DNA from: an uncultured beta proteobacterium
GTDB taxonomy: Bacteria; Pseudomonadota; Gammaproteobacteria; Burkholderiales; Burkholderiaceae
Direction: 5' to 3'
Length of the DNA stretch: 49,965 bases
NCBI GenBank assembly: GCA_903846025.1
Contig: CAIMZP010000029.1
Location: forward strand, 1-49,965
Both the position numbers and the translations under genes were made by a program. The notes below the pieces were generated by a model. It did not search any database and was not told where the DNA came from. It saw only the letters and a list, made by a program, of their open reading frames with translations. Positions 1,166 through 47,376 of the stretch are shown piece after piece. Position 1 is the stretch's first letter. Every line of letters starts with the position of its first letter.

Positions 1166-2170
1166 TTATTTAGTTAAGCTTAACTTACAGTGCTCTAGTG
1201 CCGCATTCAACTCAAATGGGTTAAAAGGGTCAAATGTGTTTCTGCCTGCAATAGCGCGCAGCCAAGTGAGCTGTCTTTTCCCTAGCTGCCTAGTTGCGGC
1301 TAAAGCCTTGTAACGCATCTGTTCTAAATTGGTTTCCCCATCTAGATACTCCCAGAGCTGCCGATAGCCCACCGATCGAATGGCTGGTAAGTTGGAATGG
1401 AGTGCTGGGTTCTTGCGGAGAACTTCTACTTCCTCAATCAGACCGCTAGCAAGCATCTCATCAAACCTTCTTTCAAGATTAATATGTAACCTTGTGCGAT
1501 CACTAGGTTCTAGCGATACGAGATTAATCCATTCTGGAATAGCTGATCCCTCTCTACCGTCCTCGCTCGGCGACTCTGCTAGTAAAAAAGACATGGGTTT
1601 GCCTGTAATTTCATACACTTCAAGGGCCCGTTGAATCCGTTGAGAATCATTCGGCATAAGGCGGTTGGCTGTGATGAGATCAACTTGCGCTAACTTGGCA
1701 TGCATTTCTGGCCAGCCAAGAACTTTTCCTTGCTGATCAAGGCGTGCGCGAATAACTTGGTTAGCTGGCGGCAATGAAGATAAACCATGAGCCCATGCAC
1801 GCCAATACAACATCGTGCCTCCAACAACCACGGGAATATTGCCGCGTGCTCGAATTTCTTGGCATAAACGTTTAGCATCATTAGCAAAGTGAGCTGCCGA
1901 ATAGGCGACATTGGGATCCAGAATATCAATCAGGTGATGTTTGACAGTAGCCTGCTCTACTTGAGTAGGTTTAGCGCTGCCAATATTTAGACCGCGATAT
2001 ACCAAGGCAGAATCCATGCTGATTATTTCTATTGTTAAGCCAATAGATTTTGCATACTCCGCAAGAGACATTGCTAGATGGGTTTTGCCTGCACCTGTCG
2101 GTCCAACAATGCAAAGAATTGGTGGATTAGAAATTGGATGCGTAGGCTGAATGTGAGGTTCAGTTTCCAT
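1166..2170 (-). CDS. miaA: tRNA dimethylallyltransferase
   Basis: Transfers a dimethylallyl group to N6 of A37 in tRNAs that read UNN codons. The 334-aa protein has the P-loop GPTGAGKT near residues 23-30, the DSALVYRGLNIGSAKP segment that replaces the textbook DSxQVYR form, and PAIRSVGYRQLWEYL near the C-terminus. The start is constrained: an in-frame TAG at 2176-2174 lies one codon before the ATG at 2170, and the P-loop follows soon after, so no upstream start is possible. A consensus TATAAT (2181-2176) sits only 5 nt before that ATG, which leaves no room for a usual leader. The gene is convergent with purM. Confidence 0.96.
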   Translation of the reverse strand: METEPHIQPTHPISNPPILCIVGPTGAGKTHLAMSLAEYAKSIGLTIEIISMDSALVYRGLNIGSAKPTQVEQATVKHHLIDILDPNVAYSAAHFANDAKRLCQEIRARGNIPVVVGGTMLYWRAWAHGLSSLPPANQVIRARLDQQGKVLGWPEMHAKLAQVDLITANRLMPNDSQRIQRALEVYEITGKPMSFLLAESPSEDGREGSAIPEWINLVSLEPSDRTRLHINLERRFDEMLASGLIEEVEVLRKNPALHSNLPAIRSVGYRQLWEYLDGETNLEQMRYKALAATRQLGKRQLTWLRAIAGRNTFDPFNPFELNAALEHCKLSLTK

Positions 2171-2175
2171 TCCCT

Positions 2176-2181
2176 ATTATA
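2176..2181 (-). promoter_or_regulatory. -10 box of miaA, predicting a leaderless transcript
   Basis: TATAAT reads 6/6 on the minus strand, with 5 nt between it and the miaA ATG. A start point 6-7 nt downstream of the box would fall on or just inside the ATG. The -35 region is weak (TTAATG or similar at 16-18 nt spacing). The AGGGA between box and ATG is too close to act as a normal Shine-Dalgarno site. Confidence 0.5.
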
Positions 2182-2247
2182 GGAACGAAATAGCAACGCC
2201 ATTAATGAGCCTGTTAATATTCTTTCATCCCACCATTGGAGCTCATA

Positions 2248-2895
2248 TTGATTGATACCCTGTTGCAATTAAGCGACCTACTACTGCATATTGATCGTCA
2301 TCTAGATGTGGTCATTCAGCAATATGGATTTTGGGCTTATGGTTTGTTATTTGCCATTGTCTTTGCTGAAACGGGTTTAGTTATTGCCCCCTTTTTGCCG
2401 GGTGACTCTTTATTATTTATTGGGGGCGCTTATTGTGCAACCAAACAATTTGATTTATCGACCCTATGCGGCGGTCTATTAATTGCTGCGATTGCAGGTA
2501 ATACCGTTAATTACCTCATTGGACGCTGGATTGGGCAAAGGGTCTTTAGCAGTCAGTCACGGTGGATTGATCAGACTGCATTACGTAAGACCCATTCTTT
2601 TTATGAGAGGCACGGAGGAAAAACCATAATCTTGGCGCGCTTCTTGCCGATCATTCGTACGTTTGCCCCATTTGTAGCAGGCGTTTCAGAAATGAATTTC
2701 TCGCGCTTCCAACTTTTTAATATTACAGGCGCTGTGCTATGGGTATTTGGGCTGGTAATTGCAGGCTATTTCTTTGGGAATATTTCCGTTATTCGTCAAA
2801 ACCTTAATGTGATTGTATTAATTGGGATTGGTGCTGCAGTGGTACCTGTAATGCTAGCTGGTCTGTATAAAATTTTTCAGCTTAAGGTGAAGTAA
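2248..2895 (+). CDS. DedA family membrane protein
   Basis: Inner-membrane protein of the DedA/SNARE-associated (VTT) family. Members are linked to membrane homeostasis and to undecaprenyl-phosphate or phospholipid flipping. Visible features are the hydrophobic helices, the FAETGLVIAPFLPGDSLLF signature, the reentrant-loop motif GRFxGxxRtFxPfvaG in the form ARFLPIIRTFAPFVAG, and a C-terminal hydrophobic helix. I place the start at TTG 2248 because GGAG (2238-2241) sits 6 nt upstream; this gives 215 aa. Another TTG at 2236 is possible but lies before that motif. The stop codon abuts the convergent SirB1-type gene with no base between them. Confidence 0.9.
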   Translation: MIDTLLQLSDLLLHIDRHLDVVIQQYGFWAYGLLFAIVFAETGLVIAPFLPGDSLLFIGGAYCATKQFDLSTLCGGLLIAAIAGNTVNYLIGRWIGQRVFSSQSRWIDQTALRKTHSFYERHGGKTIILARFLPIIRTFAPFVAGVSEMNFSRFQLFNITGAVLWVFGLVIAGYFFGNISVIRQNLNVIVLIGIGAAVVPVMLAGLYKIFQLKVK

Positions 2896-3738: not shown

Positions 3739-3743
3739 AAAGG

Positions 3744-5297: not shown

Positions 5298-5451
5298 GGA
5301 CTAATTTTCCCCTATTTATCATGCTACTGGGCTTTTTTAGTCCTTTAATGTAAAATCTTGGGTTTTGGTGAGTCAGCTTACAAATTTGGCGCACCCATGC
5401 AGATTTTTTAGTTAATCGTATTTTGTAATTTTTATAGAGCAAGGTTTAAAG

Positions 5452-5718: not shown

Positions 5719-5763
5719 GACTGTTTTAGTTTTAGGCTGGCTCTAGAGTTATTTGAGTCTAAG

Positions 5764-5789: not shown

Positions 5790-5793
5790 GTTT

Positions 5794-9615: not shown

Positions 9616-9623
9616 GCCCTCTT

Positions 9624-14422: not shown

Positions 14423-15634
14423 TTAAATTTTCTTGGCGACCAATTGAATCAGTTGGCGAGCTAGATCAAGCTTATTAGCTCTCGCTAATTTTTTTCTACC
14501 ACGCTCATCAATAATGAGAAGTTGATTGAGGTCGCTACCAAAAGTATCTGGACCAATATTACCCACAATCAATGGAATACCTTTGCGCTGGCGTTTCTCT
14601 TGTGCATGAGTTGCAAGGTCAGTGGATTCTGCAGCAAAGCCAACACAGTAGGGGCGGGATTTTCCATTCTCAGTTTTCACTGTCTTGACAACATCCAAAA
14701 GAATGTCCGGATTGGCAATGAATTCCAGTGTTGGCGCTTTTTGCCCTTGACGTTTTATTTTATCTTTGGCTGGTTTAGCAATACCCCAATCTGCCACCGC
14801 TGCTACAGCAAAAAAGATGTCACAGTCAGCCGATTTCAACGTGGCGGCATGCATTTCTTTGGCGCTAACCACATTGGTACGAGTAATTTTTCCAGTAGCC
14901 TCTAAAGGGGTATTTAGATCGCAGGGGCCGGCGACTAAATGGACTTGCGCGCCAGCCTCGATAGCTGCTCGTGCAATCGCAAAGCCCATCTTGCCGGAGC
15001 TACGATTGGTGATGCCGCGAACTGGATCAATTGCTTCAAAAGTCGGCCCAGCAGTAATAAGTACCCGCTTGCCCGCCAGTAACTTCTTCTGAAAAAATGC
15101 AACTAATTGCTCAGTAATTTCTGTTGGCTCAAGCATGCGACCTAAACCTACCTCACCACAAGCCTGAAAGCCGCTGGCTGGGCCCAATAGGGCAACACCA
15201 TCTTCTATTAATCGTTGCACACTTCTTTGTGTGGCGTCATGGTCCCACATTTGCTTATTCATAGCTGGAGCTAGGAGTAATGGACAGTCTCTTGCAAGGC
15301 AAAGTGTTGTCAATAAATCATCGGCTAAACCCAGTGATAGCTTAGCCATCAAATCGGCGCTAGCAGGCGCAATCAAAATGGCATCAGCAGATCTAGAGAG
15401 TTCAATGTGAGCCATATTATTGGCAATTGTGCGATCCCATTGGCTCGTATAAACCGGATTACCAGTAAGAGCCTGCATGGTGACCGGAGTTACAAACTGC
15501 TGTGCAGCTTCAGTCATCACCACCTGAACGCTGGCACCTTCTTGTATTAATAGGCGCGCCAACTCTGCGGACTTATATGCCGCAATTCCGCCAGATATAC
15601 CTAAAACGATTTTCTGATTCAAAAGTGATTGCAT
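14423..15634 (-). CDS. coaBC: Bifunctional phosphopantothenoylcysteine decarboxylase / synthetase
   Basis: Makes 4'-phosphopantetheine precursors for coenzyme A. The 403-aa protein is a fusion: the FMN-dependent CoaC domain (about 1-190) and the CTP-dependent CoaB domain (about 190-403). CoaC shows GGIAAYKSAELAR, PAMNKQMW and the active-site cysteine in GFQACGEVGLGRM. CoaB begins with KRVLITAGPTFEAIDPVR, followed by NRSSGKMGFAIA. The ATG at 15634 is 9 nt after the lspA stop. It lacks a Shine-Dalgarno site, so coupling to lspA is likely. Confidence 0.97.
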   Translation of the reverse strand: MQSLLNQKIVLGISGGIAAYKSAELARLLIQEGASVQVVMTEAAQQFVTPVTMQALTGNPVYTSQWDRTIANNMAHIELSRSADAILIAPASADLMAKLSLGLADDLLTTLCLARDCPLLLAPAMNKQMWDHDATQRSVQRLIEDGVALLGPASGFQACGEVGLGRMLEPTEITEQLVAFFQKKLLAGKRVLITAGPTFEAIDPVRGITNRSSGKMGFAIARAAIEAGAQVHLVAGPCDLNTPLEATGKITRTNVVSAKEMHAATLKSADCDIFFAVAAVADWGIAKPAKDKIKRQGQKAPTLEFIANPDILLDVVKTVKTENGKSRPYCVGFAAESTDLATHAQEKRQRKGIPLIVGNIGPDTFGSDLNQLLIIDERGRKKLARANKLDLARQLIQLVAKKI

Positions 15635-19992: not shown

Positions 19993-20000
19993 ATTATATT
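19993..20000. promoter_or_regulatory. Overlapping divergent -10 boxes of ribF and purN
   Basis: The 8 bp at 19993-20000 read TATAAT on the minus strand (towards ribF) and TATATT on the plus strand (19995-20000, towards purN). The plus-strand box is 6 nt before the purN ATG at 20007. -35 elements are weak in both directions. Confidence 0.45.
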
Positions 20001-20006: not shown

Positions 20007-20636
20007 ATGCTATCTATCGTTACCTTAATCTCAGGCCGCGGATCTAATTTTGAATCCATCGTCAAAACAGCCCAAAAAGAGCAATGGCCAGTCAAGTTTG
20101 CAGGGGTGATTGCGAACCATGCAGCAGCTAAAGGCCTTGATTTTGCTCGCTCTCAGGGTATTCCGGCCATTATTGTGGAGCATCGAGAGCATGCTACACG
20201 GGAATCCTTCGATGCTGCTCTGATTGAACAAATAGATGCATTGGGGGCTGATTTAGTGGTTTTAGCTGGTTTTATGAGAATTCTAACCCCAGGCTTTATC
20301 CGTCATTTTCAGGGTCGCCTTATTAATATTCACCCTGCACTATTGCCAGCCTTTCCGGGTTTACACACTCATGAGCGCGCTTTAGAGGCTGGAGTTGCAG
20401 AACATGGAGCTACAGTTCACTTTGTTACTGAGGGAGTGGATGAGGGGCCAATTATCTGTCAGGCCTCTGTTCCAGTACTTGCGGGGGATGATGCAGAGAC
20501 TTTGGGAGCTCGTGTTTTGGCAGCTGAGCATCAGATTTACCCGCGGGCCGTAAAATGGTACCTTGATGGCAGATTGCAAATAGAAGGCAATCAAGTAAAG
20601 CTTTCCCCTCCAGAGGCGCAATTAATAAAATTATGA
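20007..20636 (+). CDS. purN: Phosphoribosylglycinamide formyltransferase
   Basis: Transfers formyl from 10-formyl-THF to GAR in purine synthesis. 209 aa from ATG 20007. SGRGSNFESI binds the phosphate, and the catalytic Asn-His pair is in NIHPALLPAFPG. The catalytic Asp is in VTEGVDEGPII. A GTG two codons upstream (20001) is an alternative start. No Shine-Dalgarno motif is present, and TATATT ends 6 nt before the ATG, which fits a leaderless message. The stop overlaps the next ATG (ATGA). Confidence 0.96.
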   Translation: MLSIVTLISGRGSNFESIVKTAQKEQWPVKFAGVIANHAAAKGLDFARSQGIPAIIVEHREHATRESFDAALIEQIDALGADLVVLAGFMRILTPGFIRHFQGRLINIHPALLPAFPGLHTHERALEAGVAEHGATVHFVTEGVDEGPIICQASVPVLAGDDAETLGARVLAAEHQIYPRAVKWYLDGRLQIEGNQVKLSPPEAQLIKL

Positions 20637-24500: not shown

Positions 24501-24506
24501 TACAAT
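24501..24506 (+). promoter_or_regulatory. -10 box of the SlpA-type gene, predicting a leaderless transcript
   Basis: TACAAT (5/6) ends exactly 6 nt before the ATG at 24513. No Shine-Dalgarno motif is present, and the -35 region is poor. Confidence 0.4.
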
Positions 24507-24512: not shown

Positions 24513-24959
24513 ATGACTATGCTTAAGGTTCTCCCCAACTCTTTCTTAACCCTAAATTATCGACTGACTTTACCTAGCGGGGACGATTACATCAATACTT
24601 TTATTGATCGTCCTGCAACGGTTTTAATGGGGTCAGGACAATTTGCCCCTTGCTTTGAAAAGATGTTGATAGGCCTAGGTGTAGGTGAAAGAAAAAGTGC
24701 ACTACTCCCGCCAGAAGAAAGCTTTGGTGAGCGTAAAGACGAATTAGTGCAATGGGTTTCACTCAAAGCACTCAAAGAGGGGCGTGATGATGATGTGCAA
24801 TTTAATCCTGGAGATGTTATTGAGTTCAACGCCCCTGGCGGCGCTCAGTATGCCGGCGTAATGCAGTCGATCGATAATGAGGGCGCTTGGTTTGATTTCA
24901 ACCACCCGCTAGCTGGTCGACCCATAACCTTTGAAGCAGAGATAGTAGCCATTCTTTAA
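24513..24959 (+). CDS. FKBP-type peptidyl-prolyl isomerase, SlpA/FkpB type
   Basis: A cytosolic 148-aa proline isomerase/chaperone. It has the short FKBP fold with an inserted-in-flap (IF) domain. Typical pieces are ATVLMGSGQFAPCFEKMLIGL, ALLPPEESFGER and DFNHPLAGRPITFE. An ATG two codons later (24519) is an alternative start. ispH begins 3 nt after its stop, and fkpB-ispH pairing is widespread in proteobacteria. Confidence 0.92.
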   Translation: MTMLKVLPNSFLTLNYRLTLPSGDDYINTFIDRPATVLMGSGQFAPCFEKMLIGLGVGERKSALLPPEESFGERKDELVQWVSLKALKEGRDDDVQFNPGDVIEFNAPGGAQYAGVMQSIDNEGAWFDFNHPLAGRPITFEAEIVAIL

Positions 24960-28245: not shown

Positions 28246-28281
28246 TCTCATTCCTTTCAATAAATCGTTACGATGTGATCT

Positions 28282-29169
28282 ATGCACTCTTTTGGTAAAC
28301 CTCGAATCTTAATTATTGGCTGCGGCGATATTGGTCGGCGCGTAGCTATGCAACTTTCACGAAATTATCGGGTTTTTGCCTTAACTTCCCAAATACGCCG
28401 CTTTCAAGAACTAAGGGCAGTTGGCGCGATTCCTATTTTGGGGGATCTGGATAAGCCCGATAGCTTGTGGCGCTTGAGTGGTCTAGCACAGACCATAATT
28501 CACTTGGCACCACCCCAAAACACAGGTCATCGTGATTGCCGAACCCGCAACCTATTGCGAATTTTAGCCCAAGGCTCCGATACTGTCAGGCGCCTGATCT
28601 ATGTAAGTACTACAGGTGTGTATGGGGACCATCGCGGTGCTGAGGTATCCGAGATCACTCCAGTAAGTCCACAAAGTGAACGCGCAAAGCGCCGTGTCGA
28701 CGCGGAAAAGGTATTGCGTTTATGGGCTCCTGCTCATGGTGTTGCCTTAACGATTCTTCGTGTTCCTGGGATCTATGCACGTGATCGACTGCCGTTAGAG
28801 CGCATCCAGATGGGGATTCCTGCCTTACTTACAGCTGAGGATGGGTACTCCAATCATATTCATAGCGATGATTTGGCGCGGCTGGTCTGTGCGACGGTCT
28901 ATTATGGAAAACCTCAGCGGATCATTAATGCCTGTGATGGCGGGAAAACCAAAATGGGGGATTATTTTGATGAAGTTGCGGATGCTTTTGAATTAGCGCG
29001 CCCACCCCGTTTGTCTGGAGCAGATATACAAAAAATTGTAAGTCCCATGGTGTGGTCTTTTATGCGGGAGTCTCGGCGGGTCACCAACACAAGACTATCG
29101 GAGCTGAAAACGCCACTACGCTATCCCAGCGTAGCGCATTTTCTGAAAACTATTTCCAAGAATCCTTAA
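28282..29169 (+). CDS. NAD-dependent epimerase/dehydratase family (extended SDR-like) protein
   Basis: 295 aa. The Rossmann dinucleotide motif GCGDIGRR is at residues 13-20, STTGVYGD in the middle provides the serine and tyrosine region of atypical SDRs, and HSDDLARL near residue 195 is typical of YeeZ-like members. The substrate is unknown. ATG 28282 has no Shine-Dalgarno site; TACGAT (28269-28274) ends 7 nt before it. Its last 20 nt overlap the convergent glnS end. Confidence 0.8.
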   Translation: MHSFGKPRILIIGCGDIGRRVAMQLSRNYRVFALTSQIRRFQELRAVGAIPILGDLDKPDSLWRLSGLAQTIIHLAPPQNTGHRDCRTRNLLRILAQGSDTVRRLIYVSTTGVYGDHRGAEVSEITPVSPQSERAKRRVDAEKVLRLWAPAHGVALTILRVPGIYARDRLPLERIQMGIPALLTAEDGYSNHIHSDDLARLVCATVYYGKPQRIINACDGGKTKMGDYFDEVADAFELARPPRLSGADIQKIVSPMVWSFMRESRRVTNTRLSELKTPLRYPSVAHFLKTISKNP

Positions 29170-30922
29170 GACCAACTGCGCGATTGAAGACGGGCTTGCC
29201 TGGTTGGGAGTCTATTTGATCGGCAACAAAGTACCCATGGCGTTCAAATTGAAAACGGTCTTCTGCCAGAGCATCTTTCATGCAAGGCTCTAAATAAGCG
29301 GTAATGGTTTCTTTAGAATGGGGGTTAATAGCATTCAGGAAATTTTTATCACCGCTATCTGGATGGGGATCATTGAACAGGTGATCATAGAGTCGCACCT
29401 CTGCGGGAATAGCATCTGCTGCGCTTACCCAATGAATGTTTCCCTTGACCTTGTAATTATTCGAGCCAGACGTGCCGCTCTTACTATCAGGGAAGTAAGA
29501 GGCATTAATTTGAACTACCGTGCCATCTGCATCCACTTCAAAGCCAGTGCATTCAATTACAAAACCATGGCGTAATCGGACTCGTCCACCAGCTTGATCA
29601 CCAATTGGAGGATACAGCCTAAAGAACCCTTTGGCAGGCTCCTTCATAAAGTCATCCACTTCAATCCATAGCTCTCGGGTGAAACGAAACTCACGGTTAC
29701 CTAACTCTGGATGATGGGGGTGACGCGGGGCTGAACAAGGTTCGCTAACTGTCGGATCGAAGTTATCAATTACAAGTTTTAGAGGTTTTAGAACTGCTGT
29801 AGCACGTGGTGCTCTCGCCTCAAGATCGTCGCGGAGAGCTTGTTCTAGAGTGCTCATATCAATCCAACTCTCTGCTTTAGAAACGCCAATGCGTTCGCAG
29901 AAAAGACGAATACTTTCAGGTGTATATCCTCTGCGACGTATGCCCACTATAGTTGGCATACGAGGATCATCCCATCCAGAAACCTGTTTCTCTTCCACCA
30001 ATTGCAATAGCTTGCGTTTGCTGGTGAGGGTGTAAGTCAGGTTGAGGCGCGCGAATTCGTATTGATGAGGTAAGGGGTCTTTAAAGGCGCCAAGCTCTTT
30101 TAATGAGCTGACAATCCAGTCATATAAAGGACGATTGTTTTCAAACTCCAGCGTGCAGATAGAGTGAGAAACATTTTCTAGTGCATCTGAAATACAGTGG
30201 GTAAAATCATACAAAGGATAAATACACCACTTACTACCAGTACGGTGGTGATCGGTATGGCGAATGCGATAGACAACTGGATCACGCATCACAATATTGG
30301 GATGCGCCATATCAATCTTCAGTCGTAGAACATGTTTGCCATCTAGATATTTTCCATCACGCATCTCACGAAATAACATTAGGTTATCTTCCGCAGAGCG
30401 ATCGCGGTAGGGGCTATTTTTACCAGCTTGGCCAAAGTTTCCGCGATTCGAATGAATCTCTTCTGCACTTTGACTATCAATATATGCTTTGCCACTCTGA
30501 ATCAGGGTTTCAGCGAATGCATAAATCTGGTCAAAGTAGTCGCTAGCGTGGTAAAGATTCTCACCCCAATCGAAACCTAACCACTTAACCGCATCCAAAA
30601 TACTGTTGGCATATTCCACATCCTCCTTGACTGGATTGGTATCGTCTAAGCGCATATTGCAACGGGCGCCACCAGCTTGCTTGTTATAGTCGGCGGCTAG
30701 GCCAAAATTGAGACAAATACTTTTGGCATGGCCGATGTGCAGATACCCATTAGGCTCAGGTGGAAAGCGGGTAATGATAGAGGGAATGGCTTGGCCGCTT
30801 GTATTGGTGCGGTGTTGAAAAGGGGTGCTCGCTAAGTCATGATCAATGATCTGACGTAAAAAGTTGGAGGGCTCAGCAACTACGCTAGCGGGATTTTTGG
30901 ATGGCTTGCTGTCTTGGTGCAT
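29150..30922 (-). CDS. glnS: Glutaminyl-tRNA synthetase
   Basis: Class Ib synthetase, 590 aa. The HIGH box is in PPEPNGYLHIGHAKSI (near residue 60), and the KMSKS equivalent is the TLTSKRKLL segment. The C-terminal half holds the two beta-barrel anticodon-binding domains. The ATG at 30922 has no Shine-Dalgarno site; minus-strand TACAAT (30934-30929) ends exactly 6 nt before it. The 3' end overlaps the SDR gene by 20 nt. Confidence 0.97.
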   Translation of the reverse strand: MHQDSKPSKNPASVVAEPSNFLRQIIDHDLASTPFQHRTNTSGQAIPSIITRFPPEPNGYLHIGHAKSICLNFGLAADYNKQAGGARCNMRLDDTNPVKEDVEYANSILDAVKWLGFDWGENLYHASDYFDQIYAFAETLIQSGKAYIDSQSAEEIHSNRGNFGQAGKNSPYRDRSAEDNLMLFREMRDGKYLDGKHVLRLKIDMAHPNIVMRDPVVYRIRHTDHHRTGSKWCIYPLYDFTHCISDALENVSHSICTLEFENNRPLYDWIVSSLKELGAFKDPLPHQYEFARLNLTYTLTSKRKLLQLVEEKQVSGWDDPRMPTIVGIRRRGYTPESIRLFCERIGVSKAESWIDMSTLEQALRDDLEARAPRATAVLKPLKLVIDNFDPTVSEPCSAPRHPHHPELGNREFRFTRELWIEVDDFMKEPAKGFFRLYPPIGDQAGGRVRLRHGFVIECTGFEVDADGTVVQINASYFPDSKSGTSGSNNYKVKGNIHWVSAADAIPAEVRLYDHLFNDPHPDSGDKNFLNAINPHSKETITAYLEPCMKDALAEDRFQFERHGYFVADQIDSQPGKPVFNRAVGLKDSWK

Positions 30923-30928: not shown

Positions 30929-30934
30929 ATTGTA
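30929..30934 (-). promoter_or_regulatory. -10 box of glnS, predicting a leaderless transcript
   Basis: TACAAT (5/6) with 6 nt to the glnS ATG. The -35 is weak (TCTTTG-like at 17 nt). The tctA terminator lies directly upstream. Confidence 0.4.
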
Positions 30935-33076: not shown

Positions 33077-33105
33077 TTGCCCTTGATTTGTGCCAATGCG
33101 ATAAT
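33077..33105 (+). promoter_or_regulatory. Promoter of alaS, predicting a leaderless transcript
   Basis: -35 TTGCCC (33077-33082, 4/6), spacer 17 nt, -10 GATAAT (33100-33105, 5/6), then 7 nt to the ATG at 33113. There is no purine-rich Shine-Dalgarno site in those 7 nt. This is the most complete promoter among the suspected leaderless genes. Confidence 0.6.
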
Positions 33106-33112: not shown

Positions 33113-35737
33113 ATGAAAGTCTCCCAAATTCGCCAGGCATATCTTGATTTCTTTGCTGCTAAAGGCCACCAAATTGTCCCCTCCAGCCCAGTAGTTCCTG
33201 GAGATGACCCCACATTACTGTTTACAAATGCGGGGATGAATCAGTTTAAGGATGTATTTCTTGGTTTTGATAAGCGCCCCTACCACCGCGCTACAACTGC
33301 GCAAAAATGTATTCGCGCAGGCGGTAAGCATAATGACTTGGATAATGTAGGCTACACAGCGCGCCACCATACTTTTTTTGAAATGCTAGGCAATTTCTCT
33401 TTTGGGGATTACTTTAAAAAAGATGCTATTCAATTTGCTTGGGATTTATTGACGCAGGTTTTTGAGTTGCCAAAAGAAAAGCTGTTAGTCACGGTTTACG
33501 CTGAAGATGACGAGGCGTATGAAATTTGGAATAAGCAAATCGGCATTCCTGCTGAGCGGATTATTCGTATTGGCGATAACAAAGGTGCAAGGTACGCCTC
33601 TGATAATTTTTGGATGATGGGCGATACAGGCCCATGTGGCCCCTGTACCGAAATCTTTTTTGACCATGGTGACCATATTCCTGGGGGGCCTCCAGGTAGC
33701 CCTGATGAAGATGGTGATCGCTTTATTGAAATTTGGAATAACGTCTTTATGCAATTTAACCGCGATGAAGCGGGCAATATGCATCCTTTACCAAAGCCAA
33801 GTGTCGATACCGGCATGGGCTTAGAGCGGATTGCTGCGGTGTTGCAACATGTTCACTCTAATTATGAAATCGATCTTTTTGTTAGTCTACTCAAAGCGTC
33901 TAAAGACGCGGTTGATGCTGCTGGCGGTGAGAATTGCGATCTAGCGAGCCCTTCTTTAAAGGTCATTGCTGATCATATCCGCGCCTGCAGTTTTATTGTT
34001 GTCGATGGAGTGATTCCCGGAAATGCAGGTCGTGGTTATGTCCTTCGACGCATTGCACGTCGCGCGATACGCCATGGCTATAAATTAGGAGCGCGCAAAC
34101 CCTTCTTCTATCAGCTGGTTCCTGCTCTAGTAAAAGAGATGGGCGATGCCTACCCAGAATTGCGCGCAGCCCAAGATAAGGTTAGTGAAGTTCTCAAGCA
34201 AGAGGAAGAGCGCTTCTTTCAAACAATTGCTAATGGTATGGAAATTTTGGAGAATGCCTTAGCTGAGGGCATTAAAACAGTTGATGGTGAAACTGCTTTC
34301 CGCCTGCACGATACCTTTGGTTTTCCTTTGGATTTAACGGCGGACGTTTGCCGAGAGCGTCATGTCACTGTAGATGCTGAGGGCTTTGAAGTGGCCATGC
34401 AGAAGCAGCGTGATCAAGCAAGGGCAGCTGGTAAGTTTAAAGTGGCTCAAGGTTTGGAATATTCAGGTGAGCCTACTCAATTTTATGGTTATGACACCCT
34501 AAATTATGAGGGTTCCAAGGTGACTGCACTGTACCTTGACGGTACAGCAGTGCAGTCGGTCAAGGCGGGAGACGTTGTCGTAGTGGTGCTTGATAGCACC
34601 CCTTTTTATGCCGAATCTGGCGGGCAGGTAGGCGATAAAGGCGAGTTGCGAAATGAAGTTAGCCACTTTAACGTTGAAGACACATTCAGAATTCAGGCCA
34701 ATGTTTTTGGCCATCAAGGCGAACTTCTTGAGGGCGAAATAAAAGTAGGTGACTTACTCAACACCATCGTTGATGTGCAAGAAAGAACAGACGTTATGCG
34801 CAACCACAGCGCCACTCACATTTTGCATAAAGCATTGCGTGAAGTACTGGGTGATCACGTGCAACAAAAAGGCTCGTTGGTTGATGCTAGCAAAACCCGT
34901 TTTGATTTTACGCATCAATCCCCAATTACGGCCGCACAAATTCGTCGCATTGAAGACATTGTTAATGCTGAGATTTTAAGTAACACCCCCACCTCTGGAA
35001 AGGTGATGTCCTTAGAAGACGCTCAAAAGACGGGGGCGATGATGCTCTTTGGCGAGAAGTATGGTGATCAAGTTCGCGTTCTTGAAATCGGTAGCTCTAA
35101 GGAATTATGCGGAGGCACCCACGTTGCGCGTACTGGCGATATCGGTAGTCTAAAGATTGTCTCTGAGAGCGGGGTGGCAGCAGGCATTCGCCGTGTGGAG
35201 GCCGTAACTGGCCGGAATGCGATTCACTTTTTACAAAGTTTGGAAGATAAAGTTAACGAGGCGTCGGCTATATTAAAAACGCATTCTGGTGACTTAGTAA
35301 GTCGTGTGATACAGCTTCAAGAAAGCCTGCGTCAGGCAGAACGTGAGTTAGATAAAGCCAACTCCAAGTTAGCAGCAAGCCAAGGCGATGAGTTAGCTAC
35401 CCAAGCGATCGATGTCAATGGTATTAAAGTATTGGCCGTCCGCTTAGACGGCGCTGACGCTCAGGTACTACGTGAGACTATGGATGCCCTTAAGGCTAAA
35501 CTGAAAACTGCCGCAATTGTTTTGGCATCGGTTCAGGGTGATAAGGTTAGTTTGATTGCGGGCGTTACTGCAGACACTATTGGCAAAGTTAAGGCAGGTG
35601 ATCTGGTTAACTTTGTTGCCCAGCAGGTAGGCGGTAAGGGGGGCGGTAAACCAGAGATGGCTATGGCTGGAGGAACAGATCCAAGCAAGCTCAGCGCAGC
35701 ATTGAATGGTGTTAAAGACTGGGTGGCCTCCAAATGA
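33113..35737 (+). CDS. alaS: Alanyl-tRNA synthetase
   Basis: Class II synthetase, 874 aa from ATG 33113 ([19 protein letters not shown]). The catalytic core has [19 protein letters not shown] and the motif-2 [20 protein letters not shown]. The editing domain carries the zinc ligands in HSATH and CGGTH. A helical linker and C-terminal DHHA1 domain ([12 protein letters not shown]) follow. The frame is open 36 nt upstream, but that start is not family-like. A strong hairpin lies inside the gene at 34522-34557. Its stop overlaps tusA as ATGA. Confidence 0.98.
34522..34557 (+). repeat. Strong inverted repeat inside alaS
   Basis: GACTGCACT (34522-34530) pairs with AGTGCAGTC (34549-34557), and GTACC (34531-34535) with GGTAC (34541-34545), around the loop TTGAC. 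The only irregularity is a 3-nt bulge (34546-34548). It lies in the linker before the editing domain ([14 protein letters not shown]). Confidence 0.8.
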
Positions 35738-36952: not shown

Positions 36953-39862
36953 TTATTTCAATCGCTCTAATTGTGCAACAAGCTTCTCATGGTTTTGCTC
37001 AAAGCCTATTAGGCGTTGTTTTTCTTGTACAACAACCTCTGCTGGTGCGCGAGCTACAAAGCTTTCATTCCCAAGCTTACTGCGAGCCTTGGCAATCTCA
37101 TTTGCTAGCCGTTCAACTTCCTTATTTAGTCGCATCCTCTCAGCCACTACATCCACTTCAATTTTTAATAGCAGTTTGATGTTGCCAACCAATGCCATTG
37201 GTGCATCAGGAGCCTCTCTTTCTAGAGCTGATTCATCATCATAAATTTTCACCTCAGATAACTTGGCTAGTGCCGTTAAGTAGGGGCTTGCCTCTTTTAA
37301 GAAGTCAGCAGGCCCGCTAATCCATAAAGGTACTTTTAGCGCAGGGGATACTTGCATCTCACCACGAAGATTACGACAGGCATCGACAATGGCCTTGATT
37401 TGAGCAACCCAGGCCTCACTCTTTTCATCGATTTTTTCTAACTGGGCAATGGGATAGGCCTGCAAAGCAATCGTTTGCTTTTCCTGTTCTGCCAATACTT
37501 TTCCTGTCATTGGACCTACAGTCTGCCAAAGGGTTTCAGTGATAAATGGAATAATCGGATGAGCCATGCGCAAGATTGTTTCAAGCACGCGCAATAGCGT
37601 TCGACGGGTAGCACGTTGCTGTGCTGGAGTGCCAGTTTGTAATTGTACTTTTGCTAACTCCAAATACCAATCACAATACTCGTCCCAAACAAATTGATAA
37701 ATACTCGTCGCGATATTGTCAAAGCGGTAATTTTCAAAAGCCTTAGCGACATCAGATTCCGTTTTTTGCAGAATTGACACAATCCATTTATCTGCTGGTG
37801 AAAAATCTAAATAGCCATCAGGACCACACTGGTCATCACAGGGTGAAAAACCATTGTCATCGGCATTGCCTGGGCAGTTCATTAAAACAAAACGAGTTGC
37901 ATTCCAGAGCTTGTTGCAGAAGTTTCGATAACCTTCGCAACGCTTCTGATCAAAGTTAATATTGCGTCCTAATGAGGCAAGAGATGCAAAGGTAAATCGT
38001 AGGGCATCTGTACCAAAAGCGGGAATACCTTCAGGAAATTCTTTTTTGGTTTTTTTGTTAATGCTCTCAGCTTGTTTGGGATTCATTAATCCAGCAGTTC
38101 TTTTGCCAACTAAATCCTCTAGCTGAATTCCATCAATCAAGTCAATAGGGTCCAGAGTATTGCCTTTGGACTTACTCATCTTCTGACCCTCGGAATCACG
38201 CACTAAGCCATGTACATAGACCGTGTGAAAAGGTACCTTACCTGTAAAGTGACAAGTCATCATTACCATCCGCGCTACCCAGAAGAAGATAATGTCAAAG
38301 CCAGTCACCAGTACTGATGAAGGTAAGAAGTGATTGAGAGCGGGTGTTTCTTCTGGCCAGCCTAATGAGCTAAAGGGAACTAGCGCAGAACTAAACCATG
38401 TATCCAATACATCTGGGTCGCGATTGAGTTGGCCGCTATAGCCTGCGGCAATTGCTTTCACTTTCGCATCTGCTTCAGAGCGAGCAACAAAAATCTGATT
38501 ATTATCCCCATACCATGCCGGGATTTGATGGCCCCACCAGAGTTGACGTGAGATACACCAATCTTGAATATTTTCTAGCCACTGGGTATAGGTGCTAATC
38601 CAATTTTCCGGCACAAGTTTAATATCACCTTTAATTACTGCATCTAGCGCGGCGCCAGCAATTGATGAGCCTGGTTGATATCGGTTATCTGGACTTGGTT
38701 TAGATACCGCTACAAACCATTGGTCAGTTAGCATAGGTTCAATAATGGTTTGAGTGCGATCGCCGCGAGGAACCATCAGTTTGTGGGGTTGTACTTTTTC
38801 TAGCAGGCCTGCAGATTCCAAATCGGCAACCACTTGTTTGCGAGCTACAAAACGTTCTAGACCTTGATAGATGGCAGGGGCATTCTCATTTATTTTGGCA
38901 TCTAAAGTGAGGACATTAATTAGTGGTAACTGATGTCGTTGTCCCACTGCATAGTCATTAAAATCATGCGCGGGTGTTACTTTAACTACACCAGTACCAA
39001 AGGCTACATCGACATAATCATCAGCAATAATGGGGATATCACGATTACATAGTGGCAGTTGAACTGATTTGCCAATGAGATGTTTATATCGCTCGTCTTC
39101 TGGGTTAACCATGACAGCTACGTCACCGAGCAAGGTTTCTGGGCGAGTGGTAGCTACTGTAAGGTGGCCAGAGCCATCGGTCAATGGGTAGCGGATGTGC
39201 CACATTGATCCATCTTCCTCTTCGCTGACTACTTCTAAGTCAGAAACAGCGGTGCCTAAAACAGGATCCCAGTTGACCAAACGCTTACCGCGATAAATTA
39301 ATCCTTGCTCATGCAGGCGAACAAAGACTTCGACAACGGCTTTGGACATTTTGGTGTCCATAGTGAAATATTCTTTACCCCAATCAATCGAGGCACCTAG
39401 ACGGCGAATTTGGCGAGTAATAGTGGAGCCAGAGGCCTCCTTCCATTCCCATACCTTTTCTAAGAATTTTTCACGACCTAAGTCATGACGAGAAATTTTT
39501 TGCGCATCAAGCTGTCGCTCTACAACGATTTGCGTCGCTATACCAGCATGGTCGGTACCAGGAACCCAAAGCGTATTTTTTCCTGACATCCGAGCGTGTC
39601 GAACCAAGCCATCCATGATGGTCTGGTTAAAGGCATGACCCATATGGAGGGTGCCCGTGACATTGGGGGGAGGCAACTGAATGGAGAAGTCAGCTTTCCC
39701 ATCATCCATGTTGGCATCGGCAATGCCGCGACGTTCCCATTCTGGCCCCCAATAAGCTTCAATTGGAGCGGGTTCGTAAGATTTAGCGAGATTATCCGCG
39801 GGGGTGGTGTTCCCTGCAGGGCTTGTCGCTGGTGAATTGGGGGTGTTCGAAACATTTTGCAT
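36953..39862 (-). CDS. valS: Valyl-tRNA synthetase
   Basis: Class Ia synthetase, 969 aa from ATG 39862. HIGH box in [18 protein letters not shown] (near residue 75), editing domain with [20 protein letters not shown] box in [14 protein letters not shown], and a C-terminal coiled-coil arm rich in Glu/Lys/Arg. A TTG three codons upstream is also open. No Shine-Dalgarno site precedes the ATG; a minus-strand TATAAT ends 9 nt before it. It diverges from the helicase gene across 24 bp. Confidence 0.98.
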
Positions 39863-39871
39863 AAGAGGCAA

Positions 39872-39879
39872 ATTATAAT
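39872..39879. promoter_or_regulatory. Palindromic bidirectional -10 between valS and uvrD
   Basis: The 8-bp palindrome ATTATAAT contains a perfect TATAAT on each strand (minus 39877-39872, plus 39874-39879). It is 9 nt from the valS ATG and 7 nt from the helicase ATG. With a 24-bp gap, both -35 regions must lie inside the opposite gene; I see no strong -35 in either direction. Confidence 0.5.
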
Positions 39880-39886
39880 TGGGGCG

Positions 39887-42268
39887 ATGTACTCAGACTT
39901 GCTTGCCAACCTCAACCCCGAACAACGCGAGGCAGTAACGCTCCCGCCCGTAAATCAAAATGGTCAAGCTCAGTCAGCTTTGATCCTAGCGGGGGCTGGT
40001 AGCGGCAAGACACGGGTCTTGACTACTCGTATAGCCTGGTTGATTCAAACCGGCCAGGTGTCTCCTATTGGCGTCCTAGCGGTAACCTTCACCAATAAGG
40101 CGGCTAAGGAGATGATGGTGCGCCTAAGTGCGATGTTGCCCATTAACACTCGGGGAATGTGGATTGGCACCTTTCATGGCCTGTGTAACCGTTTATTGCG
40201 TGCCCACCATAAAGAGGCTGGTTTGCCATCTACTTTCCAGATTTTGGATACTCAGGATCAGCTTTCTGCCATTAAACGTCTTTTAAAGGGCTTGAAAGTC
40301 GATGACGAGAAATACCCCCCCAAACAATTGCAGTATTTCATTGCCCATGCGAAAGAGCGCGGGCAGCGTGCTCGCGAGTTGTCTGTAGGCGATGACTTTC
40401 AGGCCAAAATGGCGCAACTTTACGAAGCCTATGATGCTCAATGCCAGCGCGAGGGGGTTGTAGACTTTGCTGAACTTTTACTACGTAGCTATGAGTTACT
40501 CAAGCATAACGACTCAATTCGAATCCACTACCAAGAGCGTTTTCGTCATATCCTGATTGACGAGTTTCAAGATACCAATGCATTGCAATATGCATGGCTT
40601 AAATTGCTCTCTGGCCACGATGGTAGCCAAGCCAATGTTAGCGGTGCAGGTAGTAGTGCTGTTTTTGCAGTGGGCGATGACGATCAAAGTATTTATGCGT
40701 TTCGAGGTGCAGATGTCGAGAATATGCGTCTTTACGAAAAACAGTTTCAGCCAATGATGGTGAAACTAGAGCAGAACTATCGCTCGCACGGCCATATTTT
40801 GGATACGGCCAATCAACTCATTGCCAATAATTCTGATCGTTTAGGAAAAAACCTGCGCACCGATGCAGGCCATGGTGAGCTTGTGCGAATTTATGACGCC
40901 CCTAGTGATCATGCGGAAGCGGCTTGGCTGGTTGATGAAATTAAGGCGCTGGTTAATAGTGGCATCAAGCGAACCGAAATTGCCTTGCTCTATAGAAGTA
41001 ATGCTCAGTCTCGTATTATCGAGCATGCCTTATTTTCTGCTGGTATTCCATATCGGGTCTATGGTGGATTACGATTCTTTGAGCGCGCTGAAATCAAGCA
41101 TGCGTTGGCTTATTTAAGGCTCTTAGAAAATCCGAATGACGACACCTCTTTTTCACGGGTTGTGAACTTTCCAACGCGTGGTATTGGCGCAAGATCAATT
41201 GAGGCCGTTCAAGATGCGGCTAGATTGCAACAATGTTCACTCTACTTGGCCTCATCTTCGCTGGATGGTAAAGCTGGTGCAGCCTTAGGCGGCTTTGTGC
41301 GACTAGTGGATCACATGCGTGAAGCTACTCGTCACAATACCTTGCCTGAAACAGTGGAGTTTGTGATTCAGCACAGCGGCTTGATTCAGCACTACCTATC
41401 TGAGCGCGAAGGACAGGATCGCGTAGAAAATTTACAAGAGTTAACCAATGCGGCAACTGCATTTATTGCTGAAGAAGGTTTTTCTCAAGATGCTACCGCT
41501 GCGATGTTGCCTGGTGAAAATGCTCCTGGGGTAGCGGAGGTATCACCGTTGGCTGCATTTTTGTCGCATGCTTCATTGGAGGCTGGTGATAACCAAGCTC
41601 AAGCTGGCCAAGATGCTGTGCAGCTGATGACAGTGCACTCTGCAAAAGGATTGGAATTTACCTCAGTGTTTATTACTGGCCTTGAGGAGGGTTTATTTCC
41701 CCATGAGAACAGTGTTAATGAGCTCAATGGTTTAGAGGAAGAGCGTCGTTTAATGTACGTGGCAATTACGCGTGCCAAAGAGCGTTTATACCTCTCTCAC
41801 ACCCAGTCACGCATGCTGCACGGTCAAGTGAGATACAACATGCCTTCGCGTTTTCTTGAAGAGCTACCTTCTGATTCATTAAAATGGCTAACTCCAAAGG
41901 CGAAAGATGCCCGTTGGGGTGCTGGCAGCAATGGCCGCAGCTCTGGATCTACCTGGCAAGACGGCTACACCCGTCAACGCGATTCTGAGTCGAATGATTT
42001 TTTTGACTCTGGTAGTGAGCGTCAACAGCCAGCCAAGCAGCTTGGGCGCGTTGGATCGGCGTCAACAACCGTCAGGCGGATGGCTTCACCTCCACGTGGA
42101 AATTACCCGTTTGCTATCGGACAAAATGTATTTCATACGAAGTTTGGTGAGGGACGCGTTACCGGGCTGGAGGGTAATGATGCAGATGCTCGAGCGCAGG
42201 TAAGTTTCAAGCGGCATGGTGTTAAGTGGCTGCAATTGAGCATTGCAAAACTGACTGCAATTGACTAA
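39887..42268 (+). CDS. ATP-dependent DNA helicase, UvrD/PcrA type
   Basis: A superfamily 1A 3'-5' helicase for repair and replication restart. 793 aa from ATG 39887 ([17 protein letters not shown]). Walker A is [12 protein letters not shown] (near residue 36), followed by [10 protein letters not shown], the DEFQDTN Walker [23 protein letters not shown], and motif V/VI segments [14 protein letters not shown] and [17 protein letters not shown]. The C-terminal Tudor-like region ([15 protein letters not shown]) suits UvrD/PcrA. The frame extends 30 nt upstream into the valS start, which is unlikely to be used. The stop overlaps the convergent gene's stop. Confidence 0.93.
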
Positions 42269-44021: not shown

Positions 44022-44024
44022 TAC

Positions 44025-44441: not shown

Positions 44442-44473
44442 CATTTATCACCTTTTTAGACCCACTTAGACCA

Positions 44474-44479
44474 ATTATA
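44474..44479 (-). promoter_or_regulatory. -10 box of the DUF2782-thrB-BPSS1780 unit
   Basis: TATAAT (6/6) on the minus strand, 32 nt before ATG 44441, with a Shine-Dalgarno AAGGTG between. The -35 is weak. On the plus strand the overlapping bases read TATAAA, a possible alternative -10 for polA with a leader of about 40 nt. Confidence 0.45.
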
Positions 44480-44514
44480 AAAACGAGTCTAGCAGGGAGT
44501 TAGCAACTAGATTG

Positions 44515-44520
44515 TACGAT
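44515..44520 (+). promoter_or_regulatory. Possible -10 of polA, leaderless arrangement
   Basis: TACGAT (4/6) ends 6 nt before the polA ATG at 44527. No Shine-Dalgarno site is present. It is weaker evidence than for alaS or miaA, because a TATAAA about 45 nt upstream competes. Confidence 0.3.
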
Positions 44521-44526
44521 TGCGGT

Positions 44527-47376
44527 ATGACTAAACATACACTCTTGTTGATAGACGGCTCAAGCTACCTCTATCGCGCCTTTCATGCCATGCCAGACCT
44601 GAGAAATGAGGCTGGCGATCCCACAGGTGCCATTTATGGAATGGTGAATATGATGCGCCGCGCTCGATCTGAGATCAAGGCTGACCACATTGCCTGCATT
44701 TTTGACGCCAAAGGAAAGACTTTTCGAGATGAAATGTACCCAGAATACAAGGCGCATCGTTCCCCTATGCCCGAAGATTTGGTCAAACAGATTGAGCCAA
44801 TACATGCCTTAGTGAAGGCTTTGGGTTGGCCAGTTTTAATGGTTTCAGGGGTAGAGGCAGATGATGTGATCGCCACCTTGGCCTGTCAGGCCAGTCAAGC
44901 TGGATGGGAAACCATCATTTCCACCGGGGATAAAGATTTGGCGCAGCTGGTCAATTCCTCTGTCACTTTGATTAATACGATGACTAACGAGAGGCTGGAT
45001 ACCGCTGGTGTGATTGAAAAGTTTGGCGTACCACCTGAGCGCATCGTTGATTATTTGTCTATTGTTGGTGACGCTGTTGATAACGTCCCTGGAGTGCCAA
45101 AGGCGGGGCCGAAGACGGCTAATAAATGGCTGGCCGAATTTGGTGATTTAGATAACTTGATGGCCAATGCAGATCAAGTGAAGGGGGTTGTTGGAGAAAA
45201 TTTGCGTAACAGTTTGGACTGGTTACCTCAAGCCCGTCAATTGATCACTGTAAAAACCGATTGTGATTTGGGCCCTTATCTTCCTGGCCTAGATGACTTA
45301 CGAGAACAGCCTGAAGATGCACCACTTTTGAGAGAATTATTTGAGCGTTATGCATTTAAAACTTGGTTGCGTGATGTAGAAAAGCGTCTTAGCGATTCCG
45401 CTATCAAGGCCTCAGAAGACGATCATATCGGCGGTGGCTTTGATTTAGCTGGTAGCCCACTGCCAGTAGCTACTTATAGTGCTAACCACGCTTCCTTAGA
45501 CAAGGTGCCGCGCATGATTGCTGCGGCACCAACCAAAGCCTTATCTTCAAATACATCAGAATTGCATGGTGCAATCGCGCGCAATTATGAATGTGTAGTG
45601 GATGCAGCCGCTTTAGATAGGTGGTTGAACAAAATTAATGACGCAGTGCTGACTGCGGTTGATACTGAAACTACTGGTTTGGATGCCCTGGCAGCTGAGC
45701 TAGTGGGGATATCTCTTTGCGTCACTTCTGGTGAAGCATGCTATATCCCAGTAGCACATCGCAACGGAGAAACCCAGTTGAGTAGAGATTTTGTATTGTC
45801 TCGCATAAGACCTTGGTTAGAAAGTACAGCGCACTCTAAGGTCGGTCAAAATTTAAAGTACGACGCCCACATCTTCAAAAATTATGGCATTACTTTGGGA
45901 GGCATTGAGTTTGATACGATGCTCGAATCATACGTTCTTGAGTCTCATCTTCCTCACAATATGGATAGCTTGGCTGAGCGCCATCTCGGCATGAAAACGA
46001 TTCGCTATGAAGAAGTGTGTGGCAAAGGCGTTCATCAAATTGGCTTTGATCAAGTAGACCTTCAGATTGCTACTAACTATGCCGCTGAAGATGCAGACAT
46101 TACCTTGCGTTTGCATTTGGAATTGTGGCCACAAATTGAAGTGAATCCAGGTTTACTGTATGTCTATAAGAATATTGAAATGCCAGCGATGCGCGTGCTG
46201 GGAATTATGGAGCGCAATGGAATTCGGATTGACTCTGCTTTATTGGCGAAACAAGGTCAAAAAGTTGGAAAACGACTGCTTGAATTGGAGGGGGAGATTC
46301 ATAAATTAGCAGGGCAACCTTTTAATATTCAATCACCCAAACAAATTGCAGAAATTCTTTTTGGGCAGCTCGAGTTGCCTGTCATCAAAAAAACCCCATC
46401 AGGAGCTCCATCTACCGATGAAGAGGTGCTGCAAAAGTTAGCTGAAGACTACCCTTTGCCTGCGCGCATCTTGGATTATCGGAGTTTGGCTAAATTGATG
46501 TCGACTTATATTGATAAACTCCCGCGTATGGCAGACCCAAAAACAGGGCGCATCCATACGAATTTCTCCCAAGCAACTGCAGTAACAGGGCGGCTAGCGT
46601 CAAGCGACCCAAATTTGCAAAATATTCCAGTGCGCACAGAAGAGGGGCGTCGGATCCGAGAAGCATTTATTCCCGCAGATGGTTGCAAACTTTTATCGGC
46701 AGATTATTCTCAGATCGAATTAAGAATAATGGCCCACATAGCGGAAGATGAAAACTTGCTGGCCGCTTTTGCTGCGGGCAAGGATGTACACCAGGCAACT
46801 GCATCAGAGATTTTTGGAATTCCCCTCGAAGAGGTAAATTCAGAACAACGACGCTATGCCAAGGTTATTAACTTTGGTTTGATATATGGGATGAGTGCCT
46901 TTGGCTTGGCTAGTAATTTAGGGATTGAGCGTTCTGCGGCGCAAAACTATATTGCTAAATACTTTGATCGTTATCCTGGGGTGGCTCAATACATGGAACG
47001 TACTCGCCTAGAAGCCAGAGAAAATGGATATGTAGAGACCGTTTTTGGAAGGCGCTTATGGCTGCCTGAAATCAAGGGCTCCAATGGCCCACGTCGCCAG
47101 GGAGCTGAGCGTGCTGCCATTAATGCCCCCATGCAGGGAACGGCCGCTGATTTAATCAAGTTGGCCATGGTCGCAGTGGAGAATTGGCTTGAAAAAGAAC
47201 AGCTAAAGACCCGCATGCTTTTGCAAGTGCATGATGAGTTGGTGTTTGATGTGCCCTTTGATGAGCTGACAATCTTGCAGGAAAGGCTCCCGGATTTGAT
47301 GTGTCAAGTCACCAAATTAAAAGTACCTTTAGTGGTAAGTATTGGTATTGGCGATAATTGGGAAGAGGCCCATTAA
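44527..47376 (+). CDS. polA: DNA polymerase I
   Basis: 949 aa from ATG 44527. Three domains: the 5'-3' exonuclease (LLIDGSSYLYRAFHA; GVEADDVIATLA), the 3'-5' exonuclease with intact proofreading residues (DTETTG, NLKYDAHIF, YAAEDADITLRL), and the polymerase (SADYSQIELRIMAHIAEDE motif A, RRYAKVINFGLIYGMSAFGL O-helix, LLQVHDELVFD motif C). A complete, proofreading-competent Pol I. The frame extends 15 nt further upstream but without a better start. Confidence 0.98.
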   Translation: MTKHTLLLIDGSSYLYRAFHAMPDLRNEAGDPTGAIYGMVNMMRRARSEIKADHIACIFDAKGKTFRDEMYPEYKAHRSPMPEDLVKQIEPIHALVKALGWPVLMVSGVEADDVIATLACQASQAGWETIISTGDKDLAQLVNSSVTLINTMTNERLDTAGVIEKFGVPPERIVDYLSIVGDAVDNVPGVPKAGPKTANKWLAEFGDLDNLMANADQVKGVVGENLRNSLDWLPQARQLITVKTDCDLGPYLPGLDDLREQPEDAPLLRELFERYAFKTWLRDVEKRLSDSAIKASEDDHIGGGFDLAGSPLPVATYSANHASLDKVPRMIAAAPTKALSSNTSELHGAIARNYECVVDAAALDRWLNKINDAVLTAVDTETTGLDALAAELVGISLCVTSGEACYIPVAHRNGETQLSRDFVLSRIRPWLESTAHSKVGQNLKYDAHIFKNYGITLGGIEFDTMLESYVLESHLPHNMDSLAERHLGMKTIRYEEVCGKGVHQIGFDQVDLQIATNYAAEDADITLRLHLELWPQIEVNPGLLYVYKNIEMPAMRVLGIMERNGIRIDSALLAKQGQKVGKRLLELEGEIHKLAGQPFNIQSPKQIAEILFGQLELPVIKKTPSGAPSTDEEVLQKLAEDYPLPARILDYRSLAKLMSTYIDKLPRMADPKTGRIHTNFSQATAVTGRLASSDPNLQNIPVRTEEGRRIREAFIPADGCKLLSADYSQIELRIMAHIAEDENLLAAFAAGKDVHQATASEIFGIPLEEVNSEQRRYAKVINFGLIYGMSAFGLASNLGIERSAAQNYIAKYFDRYPGVAQYMERTRLEARENGYVETVFGRRLWLPEIKGSNGPRRQGAERAAINAPMQGTAADLIKLAMVAVENWLEKEQLKTRMLLQVHDELVFDVPFDELTILQERLPDLMCQVTKLKVPLVVSIGIGDNWEEAH

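Follow-up and report, generated by a model that had tools for sequence, protein, structure and literature searches.

Start-codon-proximal −10 elements predict an inherited class of leaderless mRNAs in Polynucleobacter

The 49,965 nucleotides (nt) of contig CAIMZP010000029.1 of an uncultured beta proteobacterium (assembly GCA_903846025.1), analyzed here over their full length and hereafter called the window, carry −10-like hexamers a few nt before the start codons of nine genes: miaA, purN, an SlpA-type FKBP gene (slpA), an SDR-like gene, glnS, alaS, uvrD, valS, and polA. We propose that these boxes and others like them are sigma-70-type promoters that start transcription at or near the ATG, and that the predicted leaderless mRNAs form an inherited minority class in Polynucleobacter, a reading to which, judging from the sequence, we assign a probability of about 0.85. 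A preliminary description of the window had already predicted leaderless mRNAs, and this is still the best reading, as a positional peak of boxes, their conservation, and the scarcity of Shine-Dalgarno sites all agree with it. In sigma-70 geometry, +1 coincides with the first letter of the start codon when the −10 element ends 6-7 nt upstream of it. Transcripts from a box at this distance would begin at the A of the ATG, or no more than 1-2 nt away, the mRNA would have no leader, and ribosomes would bind the 5'-terminal AUG directly without a Shine-Dalgarno site. The sequence directly shows the boxes, their spacing, their positional peak, their conservation across species, the scarcity of Shine-Dalgarno sites, and the preference for ATG; that any given box acts as the promoter, where precisely +1 falls, and how the mRNA is translated are what we infer.

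Placement of −10 boxes across the genus

The window is the entire contig 29 of a draft genome of 1.97 Mb (91.8% complete), which appears to be that of a Polynucleobacter-like member of the Burkholderiales, because its ValS is 90% identical to that of Polynucleobacter nymphae, the closest named relative. It was compared with 24 further genomes of the same genus, among which "crown" denotes a UvrD at least 84% identical to that of our genome and "basal" one of 75-77%; these are identity classes rather than a tree. Enrichment was counted on genome samples rather than complete genomes: 537,474 bases of our genome outside the window and 400 kb each from P. nymphae, G033, and G014, the last a basal member of the genus. 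Boxes were scored with a sigma-70 −10 matrix at a cut-off of usually 4 bits, and the gap is the number of nt between box and start codon. Genes were called with a program of our own that chooses starts by coding composition and start codon and is blind to upstream sequence; in one stretch of Escherichia coli for which the annotation lists 43 genes (leaving aside truncated ones and a gene of 27 amino acids), it found 40, of which 31 had the start given in the annotation. A first gene is one with a divergent neighbor or with at least 60 nt to its co-directional neighbor.

Outside the window, a gap-6 box scoring 4 bits or higher precedes 18 of the 207 first genes of our genome. The background is lower, with a mean of 2.76 genes for each position from gap 12 to gap 60 and, in 200 dinucleotide shuffles, a mean of 2.87 and a maximum of 8. 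The other genus members gave 13/175 (P. nymphae), 12/184 (G033), and 12/160 (G014), whereas E. coli had 1/211 against 2.55 expected. The comparison with shuffled sequence that the preliminary description had proposed, for −10 enrichment 6 nt before first genes, is thus positive in the samples from four genus genomes and negative in E. coli. Leaderless genes, which that description regarded as usually a minority in proteobacteria, are predicted to be one in these genomes as well: in the samples from the four genus members, boxes at gaps 5-7 exceed the background by 5.7-7.6% of first genes. Two other Burkholderiales samples had 2/107 (G042, 0.49 expected) and 0/76 (G048, 1.1 expected) at gap 6. 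Counts made near valS were 1/147 in a Burkholderia group, 11/183 in an Oxalobacteraceae group, 0/18 in Limnobacter/Alcaligenaceae, 3/87 in a Comamonadaceae-type group, and 2/225 in Nitrosomonadales/Rhodocyclales; since just the valS neighborhood was sampled, we claim no leaderless rate for other Burkholderiales.

A hexamer count made without any matrix gave the same picture. TANAAT lies at gap 6 in 22 of 726 pooled first genes, compared with 1.8 per position, and TACAAT, TAAAAT, and TAAACT also emerge at gap 6, beside the expected Shine-Dalgarno words. The signal is therefore a TANNNT-like −10 at a fixed position about 12 nt upstream of the start, which is what characterizes TA-led genes. Closely spaced operon genes of our genome have a gap-6 box in 3 of 140 cases against the 18 of 207 among first genes, in keeping with the earlier remark that the genes concerned are mostly first genes of transcripts. 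Separately, the inner operon genes of our genome, P. nymphae, G033, and G014 have a gap-6 box in 14 of 495 cases, with about 2 expected, hinting at leaderless internal promoters, some of which would extend into the end of the preceding gene.

Boxes in the window, their conservation, and alternative readings

All eight hexamers of the preliminary description and their gaps of 5-7 nt, along with the gap of 9 nt at valS, proved to be exactly as stated there. On the minus strand, TATAAT precedes miaA (2176..2181; gap 5, ATG at 2170) and TACAAT precedes glnS (30929..30934; gap 6, ATG at 30922). On the plus strand lie the boxes of purN (TATATT, 19995..20000; gap 6, ATG at 20007), slpA (TACAAT, 24501..24506; gap 6, ATG at 24513), the SDR-like gene (TACGAT, 28269..28274; gap 7, ATG at 28282), alaS (GATAAT, 33100..33105; gap 7, ATG at 33113), and polA (TACGAT, 44515..44520; gap 6, ATG at 44527). 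The two remaining boxes, both TATAAT, overlap between divergent genes: that of uvrD at 39874..39879 on the plus strand (gap 7, ATG at 39887) and that of valS at 39872..39877 on the minus strand (gap 9, ATG at 39862). Scores of the nine range from 3.95 bits (TACGAT) to 7.08 (TATAAT), with GATAAT at 4.16. A −35 of good quality accompanies only the alaS box (TTGCCC, 33077..33082, plus strand; spacer 17, 5.5 bits) and reads TTGCCC or TTACCC in crown relatives. The start codons themselves are credible, because a competing upstream GTG of purN is not kept in basal relatives and a second ATG of slpA is not kept in the relatives compared. The FKBP-type profile match of the slpA product is below the curated cut-off. 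As described earlier, the window genes lack a usable Shine-Dalgarno motif: none of the nine has a match of at least 4 contiguous letters of AAGGAGGT at −20 to −4. In this window, which was chosen precisely for its many boxes, they are denser than in the rest of the genome at 3.9 bits (8/27 against 24/207 first genes, Fisher P 0.017) and less clearly so at 4.0 bits (6/27 against 24/207, P 0.13). An open reading frame (ORF) at 14423-15634, with TAAGCT at gap 6 (3.8 bits), is a possible tenth gene.

For seven window genes, 60 short upstream stretches from ten genomes were compared. A box at gap 5-7 is present in 5/5 crown genomes for alaS, polA, glnS, purN, slpA, and the SDR-like gene. It is likewise present in 2/2 basal genomes for alaS, glnS, purN, and slpA, in 3/3 for polA, and in 1/2 for the SDR-like gene; in other families, the counts are 0/2 for alaS, 0/1 each for polA, glnS, and slpA, 1/2 for purN, and 1/1 for the SDR-like gene. 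The miaA box, at gap 5-6, is found in 4/5 other crown genomes, 0/3 basal genomes, and 0/1 of another family. Loci L004-L006 have the boxes of uvrD, alaS, polA, glnS, and the SDR-like gene. For the six genes besides miaA and uvrD, letters identical to those of our genome number 249/252 in the box, 134/233 in the spacer between box and ATG (rows of equal length only), and 558/840 in the 20 nt upstream, the one row without a box (the SDR-like gene of G024) being dropped. A hexamer that is frozen at a kept distance between drifting flanks fits selection on the promoter and on its distance to the ATG; the −10 hexamer is under purifying selection, as a sigma-70 promoter should be. In reciprocal-best orthologue pairs of first genes beyond the window, a gene whose partner has a box at gap 5-7 has one as well in 9/11 cases, against 4/78 when the partner has no box (one gene may appear in more than one pair). 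With window genes included, 19/25 boxes at gaps 6-7 keep their position to within 1 nt, compared with 40/127 at gaps 12-59.

Translation signals at the candidate genes are in line with this. The share of genes with a Shine-Dalgarno match of at least 4 nt is 7.4% among 81 leaderless candidates from the genus sample and 36.6% among the 672 other first genes; for ATG as the start codon, the shares are 96% and 90.5% (raw percentages, given without a significance figure). The available text of one account (PMC9031893) describes leaderless messages as translated mostly by 70S ribosomes at a 5'-terminal AUG and non-AUG starts in E. coli as less efficient on such messages, and the ATG preference of the candidates is in line with the latter. 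In P. nymphae, the 16S rRNA has an intact anti-Shine-Dalgarno end; this end was not found in our genome, where the draft is incomplete.

Several observations weigh against leaderless initiation as we propose it. The scarcity of Shine-Dalgarno sites is partly mechanical, because the box occupies the place of that site. No −35 of at least 3 bits at spacers 15-19 was found for eight of the nine window genes (all but alaS), and a −35 at spacer 17 is in weak excess among the candidates (7/81, compared with 3.8% for 418 control boxes). An extended −10, or a −35 common to the group, was considered and rejected, as no clear element emerged among the 81. Locus L020 is without the alaS and SDR boxes, though those of polA and glnS are present, and retention across the deepest split is mixed, with 4/5 between our genome and G014 but 0/3 between G033 and G014 and 0/1 between P. 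nymphae and G014. Start-calling errors, with 31/40 starts right, blur the counts, though they should not produce a peak, and extra upstream promoters that add a leader could exist beside the boxes.

The most serious alternative accepts the hexamers as genuine −10 elements but places the main transcription starts further upstream, which would make the start near the ATG secondary and leaders usual. The lack of a good −35 at most boxes is what one would expect under this alternative, and many mRNAs of Cupriavidus metallidurans are reported, in the passages available to us, to have several alternative starts (PMC7563307). However, the intergenic space upstream is often short (24 bp for uvrD/valS, 30 bp for the SDR-like gene, and 38 bp for purN), the sequence above the boxes is far less conserved than the boxes, and the window genes offer a leader no 4-nt Shine-Dalgarno match, and we therefore regard upstream starts as the rule as improbable. 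Still less credible is that the hexamers are translation signals rather than promoters, for instance A/T-rich elements that serve as binding sites for ribosomal protein S1 or that reduce structure around the start. AT-rich signals of this kind are discussed for some bacteria in the part of Zheng et al. (2011; PMC3160421) available, but the hexamers here are TANNNT-like, locked to one position, and concentrated in first genes rather than operon genes, and such a role is impossible for the uvrD box of basal genus members, since it lies 21-25 nt from the start. A last alternative, chance hexamers picked by eye from AT-rich upstream sequence, draws on the weakness of TACGAT and GATAAT and on a chance rate of about 1 in 75 for a 4-bit match at any one position before first genes. 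It can be dismissed for the set as a whole, though single members could still fail: all eight boxes recur at gap 5-7 in no fewer than 4/5 further crown genomes (uvrD in 20/20 with our own), and the gap-6 peak stands outside the window.

Short divergent intergenic regions and changes of leader

Leaderless transcription, as predicted from the boxes, would be commonest where divergent genes lie no more than 80 bp apart. The genus sample, together with the window, contains 162 divergent pairs. In 50 of them at least one gene has a box at gap 5-7, and the median distance between the two genes is then 82 bp, compared with 150 bp in the 112 pairs that have no such box. The share of pairs with a box is 9/13 at up to 40 bp, 15/32 at 41-80 bp, 17/59 at 81-160 bp, and 9/58 at 161-400 bp; with the window excluded, it is 20/41 for pairs of at most 80 bp and 25/113 for longer ones. 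Per gene, 29 of the 90 in divergent pairs of at most 80 bp have a box at gaps 5-7, against 0-9 of 90 at other gap triples. Leader loss thus suggests itself as part of intergenic compaction. Whether both partners are leaderless more often than expected was also examined and set aside, as the 8/162 such pairs are not a significant excess (odds ratio 2.1, P 0.18). Samples from outside the genus cannot serve as controls for divergent regions, because they hold too few short ones: 2 genes each in E. coli, G042, G048, and the Oxalobacteraceae group, 0 in the Burkholderia group, 12 (2 boxes) in the Comamonadaceae-type group, and 14 (0 boxes) in the Nitrosomonadales/Rhodocyclales group.

Two further divergent arrangements were seen in the genus. 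In G014 (L200, 11748-11769), 22 bp separate divergent genes that both have boxes at gap 6, with overlapping −10s (ATTCTATAAT). In two species (L145, 2152-2226, and L119, 8043-8104), lexA is divergent from an asparaginase-type gene and each of the two has a box at gap 5-6, that of lexA lying within a CTGT..CAG-like stretch, which we presume may be lexA's own operator.

The region between uvrD and valS is the extreme case. These divergent genes are separated by 24 bp (39863-39886) with a single palindromic −10, in which a 10-bp perfect palindrome (AATTATAATT, 39871..39880) is usable in both directions and could start both mRNAs, the −10 being symmetric and the predicted start sites 25 bp apart. 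The uvrD box is at gap 7 in 20/20 crown genomes, our own included, before 19 ATG and 1 GTG starts. In all five basal genomes, the uvrD box keeps the same place relative to valS and lies 21-25 nt before a GTG, as would be expected of an ordinary promoter followed by a short leader. As the valS −10 is only 8-9 nt from the ATG in 25/25 genus members, valS may be near-leaderless in Polynucleobacter, contrary to the prior expectation that it would be leadered everywhere.

Among loci from other genera, in groups assigned by us and counted where the N-terminus could be aligned, TATAAT or GATAAT lies 6-7 nt before the uvrD ATG in 9/9 Oxalobacteraceae-type loci (L023, L024, L025, L027, L028, L029, L032, L041, and L051). 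A box at gap 5-7 was found in 0/15 Burkholderia/Paraburkholderia/Caballeronia/Trinickia/Cupriavidus-type loci; eight of these 15 have TATAAT further upstream within 45 nt, and we infer that the remaining seven are leadered. In L071, L073, L077, L078, and L083, the uvrD box stands before an ATG that is 9 to 60 nt further upstream (5/5), which is weaker evidence because these boxes were found by scanning several ATGs. The sequence after the box is alike in Burkholderia L017 and Collimonas L025 (TATAATGTCGGG), with an ATG immediately after it only in Collimonas. A similarity search of E. coli with the uvrD region gave no match.

The case of miaA shows what would be a different route to the leaderless state from that of uvrD. 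In basal members and G040, miaA follows an ORF whose product ends in ..LFLRGR or ..LFLRGQ (read by eye), which we take to be a MutL-like C-terminal ending. In the window (1166-2170), miaA is no longer behind this upstream gene and has a box of its own, as it does in the crown genomes noted above.

Taking these observations together, we offer a joint reading for the streamlined Polynucleobacter genomes that we hold tentatively, at somewhat less than even odds. Leader loss would be one way in which intergenic space is compacted, and short divergent regions would give rise to two-way promoters that start at start codons, with the uvrD/valS palindrome as the extreme. Genes such as uvrD would have switched repeatedly between leadered and leaderless states in Burkholderiales, as insertions or deletions altered the distance from a retained promoter to its start codon.

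Relation to known leaderless genes and implications

Leaderless genes with this signal are known from beta-proteobacteria in general and from Burkholderia cenocepacia and C. metallidurans in particular. According to the portion of Zheng et al. (2011; PMC3160421) available, TA-led leaderless genes occur in 9 of 71 beta-proteobacterial genomes, at 2.8-10.6%, and the upstream TANNNT signal is the same in Polynucleobacter. For B. cenocepacia J2315, of the same order, the available passages (PMC4603805) report primary starts that coincide with the annotated start in 72 cases and fall within 10 nt of it in 42, with tRNAs accounting for 24 of these transcripts; they describe a TA-rich motif directly upstream of leaderless starts, as in Polynucleobacter, and an enrichment of transcriptional regulators. 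Unlike those of Polynucleobacter, the Burkholderia-type uvrD loci compared here have no box at gap 5-7. In C. metallidurans CH34, 4.67% of primary starts are leaderless (5' untranslated region under 5 nt), and the leaderless mRNAs are enriched for transcription and replication/repair classes, as reported in the sections available (PMC7563307). That set is experimental, whereas the Polynucleobacter set is predicted and, in a small sample, without functional bias.

A leaning toward translation and replication enzymes had been described for the window, and it is confined to the window, where 5/8 genes are of this kind. Outside it, the share is 6/24 candidates against 8/30 control first genes, and a genome-wide functional bias is therefore rejected; we assigned the classes from NCBIfam names, and four of the full set of 30 controls come from the window itself, the possibly near-leaderless valS among them. 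The information-processing candidates outside the window are gyrA, lexA, greB, gltX, YjgA, and YicC, and the others include trxB, thiD, dcd, kdsD, ccmA, and more, some of the matches being below the curated cut-off.

Bidirectional promoters, in which one near-palindromic −10 is read both ways with starts 7-25 bp apart, are described in the passages available of a paper (PMC10268837) citing Warman et al. (2021). The symmetric −10 between uvrD and valS, with its predicted starts 25 bp apart, is like these, but unlike them, both of its products would be leaderless or near-leaderless housekeeping mRNAs. Our literature search, which took in few subscription papers and no supplements, found none that pairs "leaderless" with "Polynucleobacter", although the genus may be among the nine genomes of Zheng et al., and none on transcription start sites in Polynucleobacter. 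Neither the tie to short divergent regions nor the switching of uvrD appears in the passages on leaderless genes available from earlier work, which suggests that both are new, and conservation at the species level is likewise absent from those of Zheng et al.

These results add a freshwater genus to the bacteria with a stably inherited class of leaderless genes, as predicted here, and provide candidates among core genes, such as alaS, glnS, polA, uvrD, and purN in the window and gyrA, lexA, gltX, and trxB outside it. They also have a practical implication, as gene callers that rely on Shine-Dalgarno sites may misplace such starts. The uvrD promoter, which occurs with and without a leader in close relatives, is a comparative system that offers a direct test of what leaderless initiation costs, what it gains, and how it relates to the compaction of genomes.

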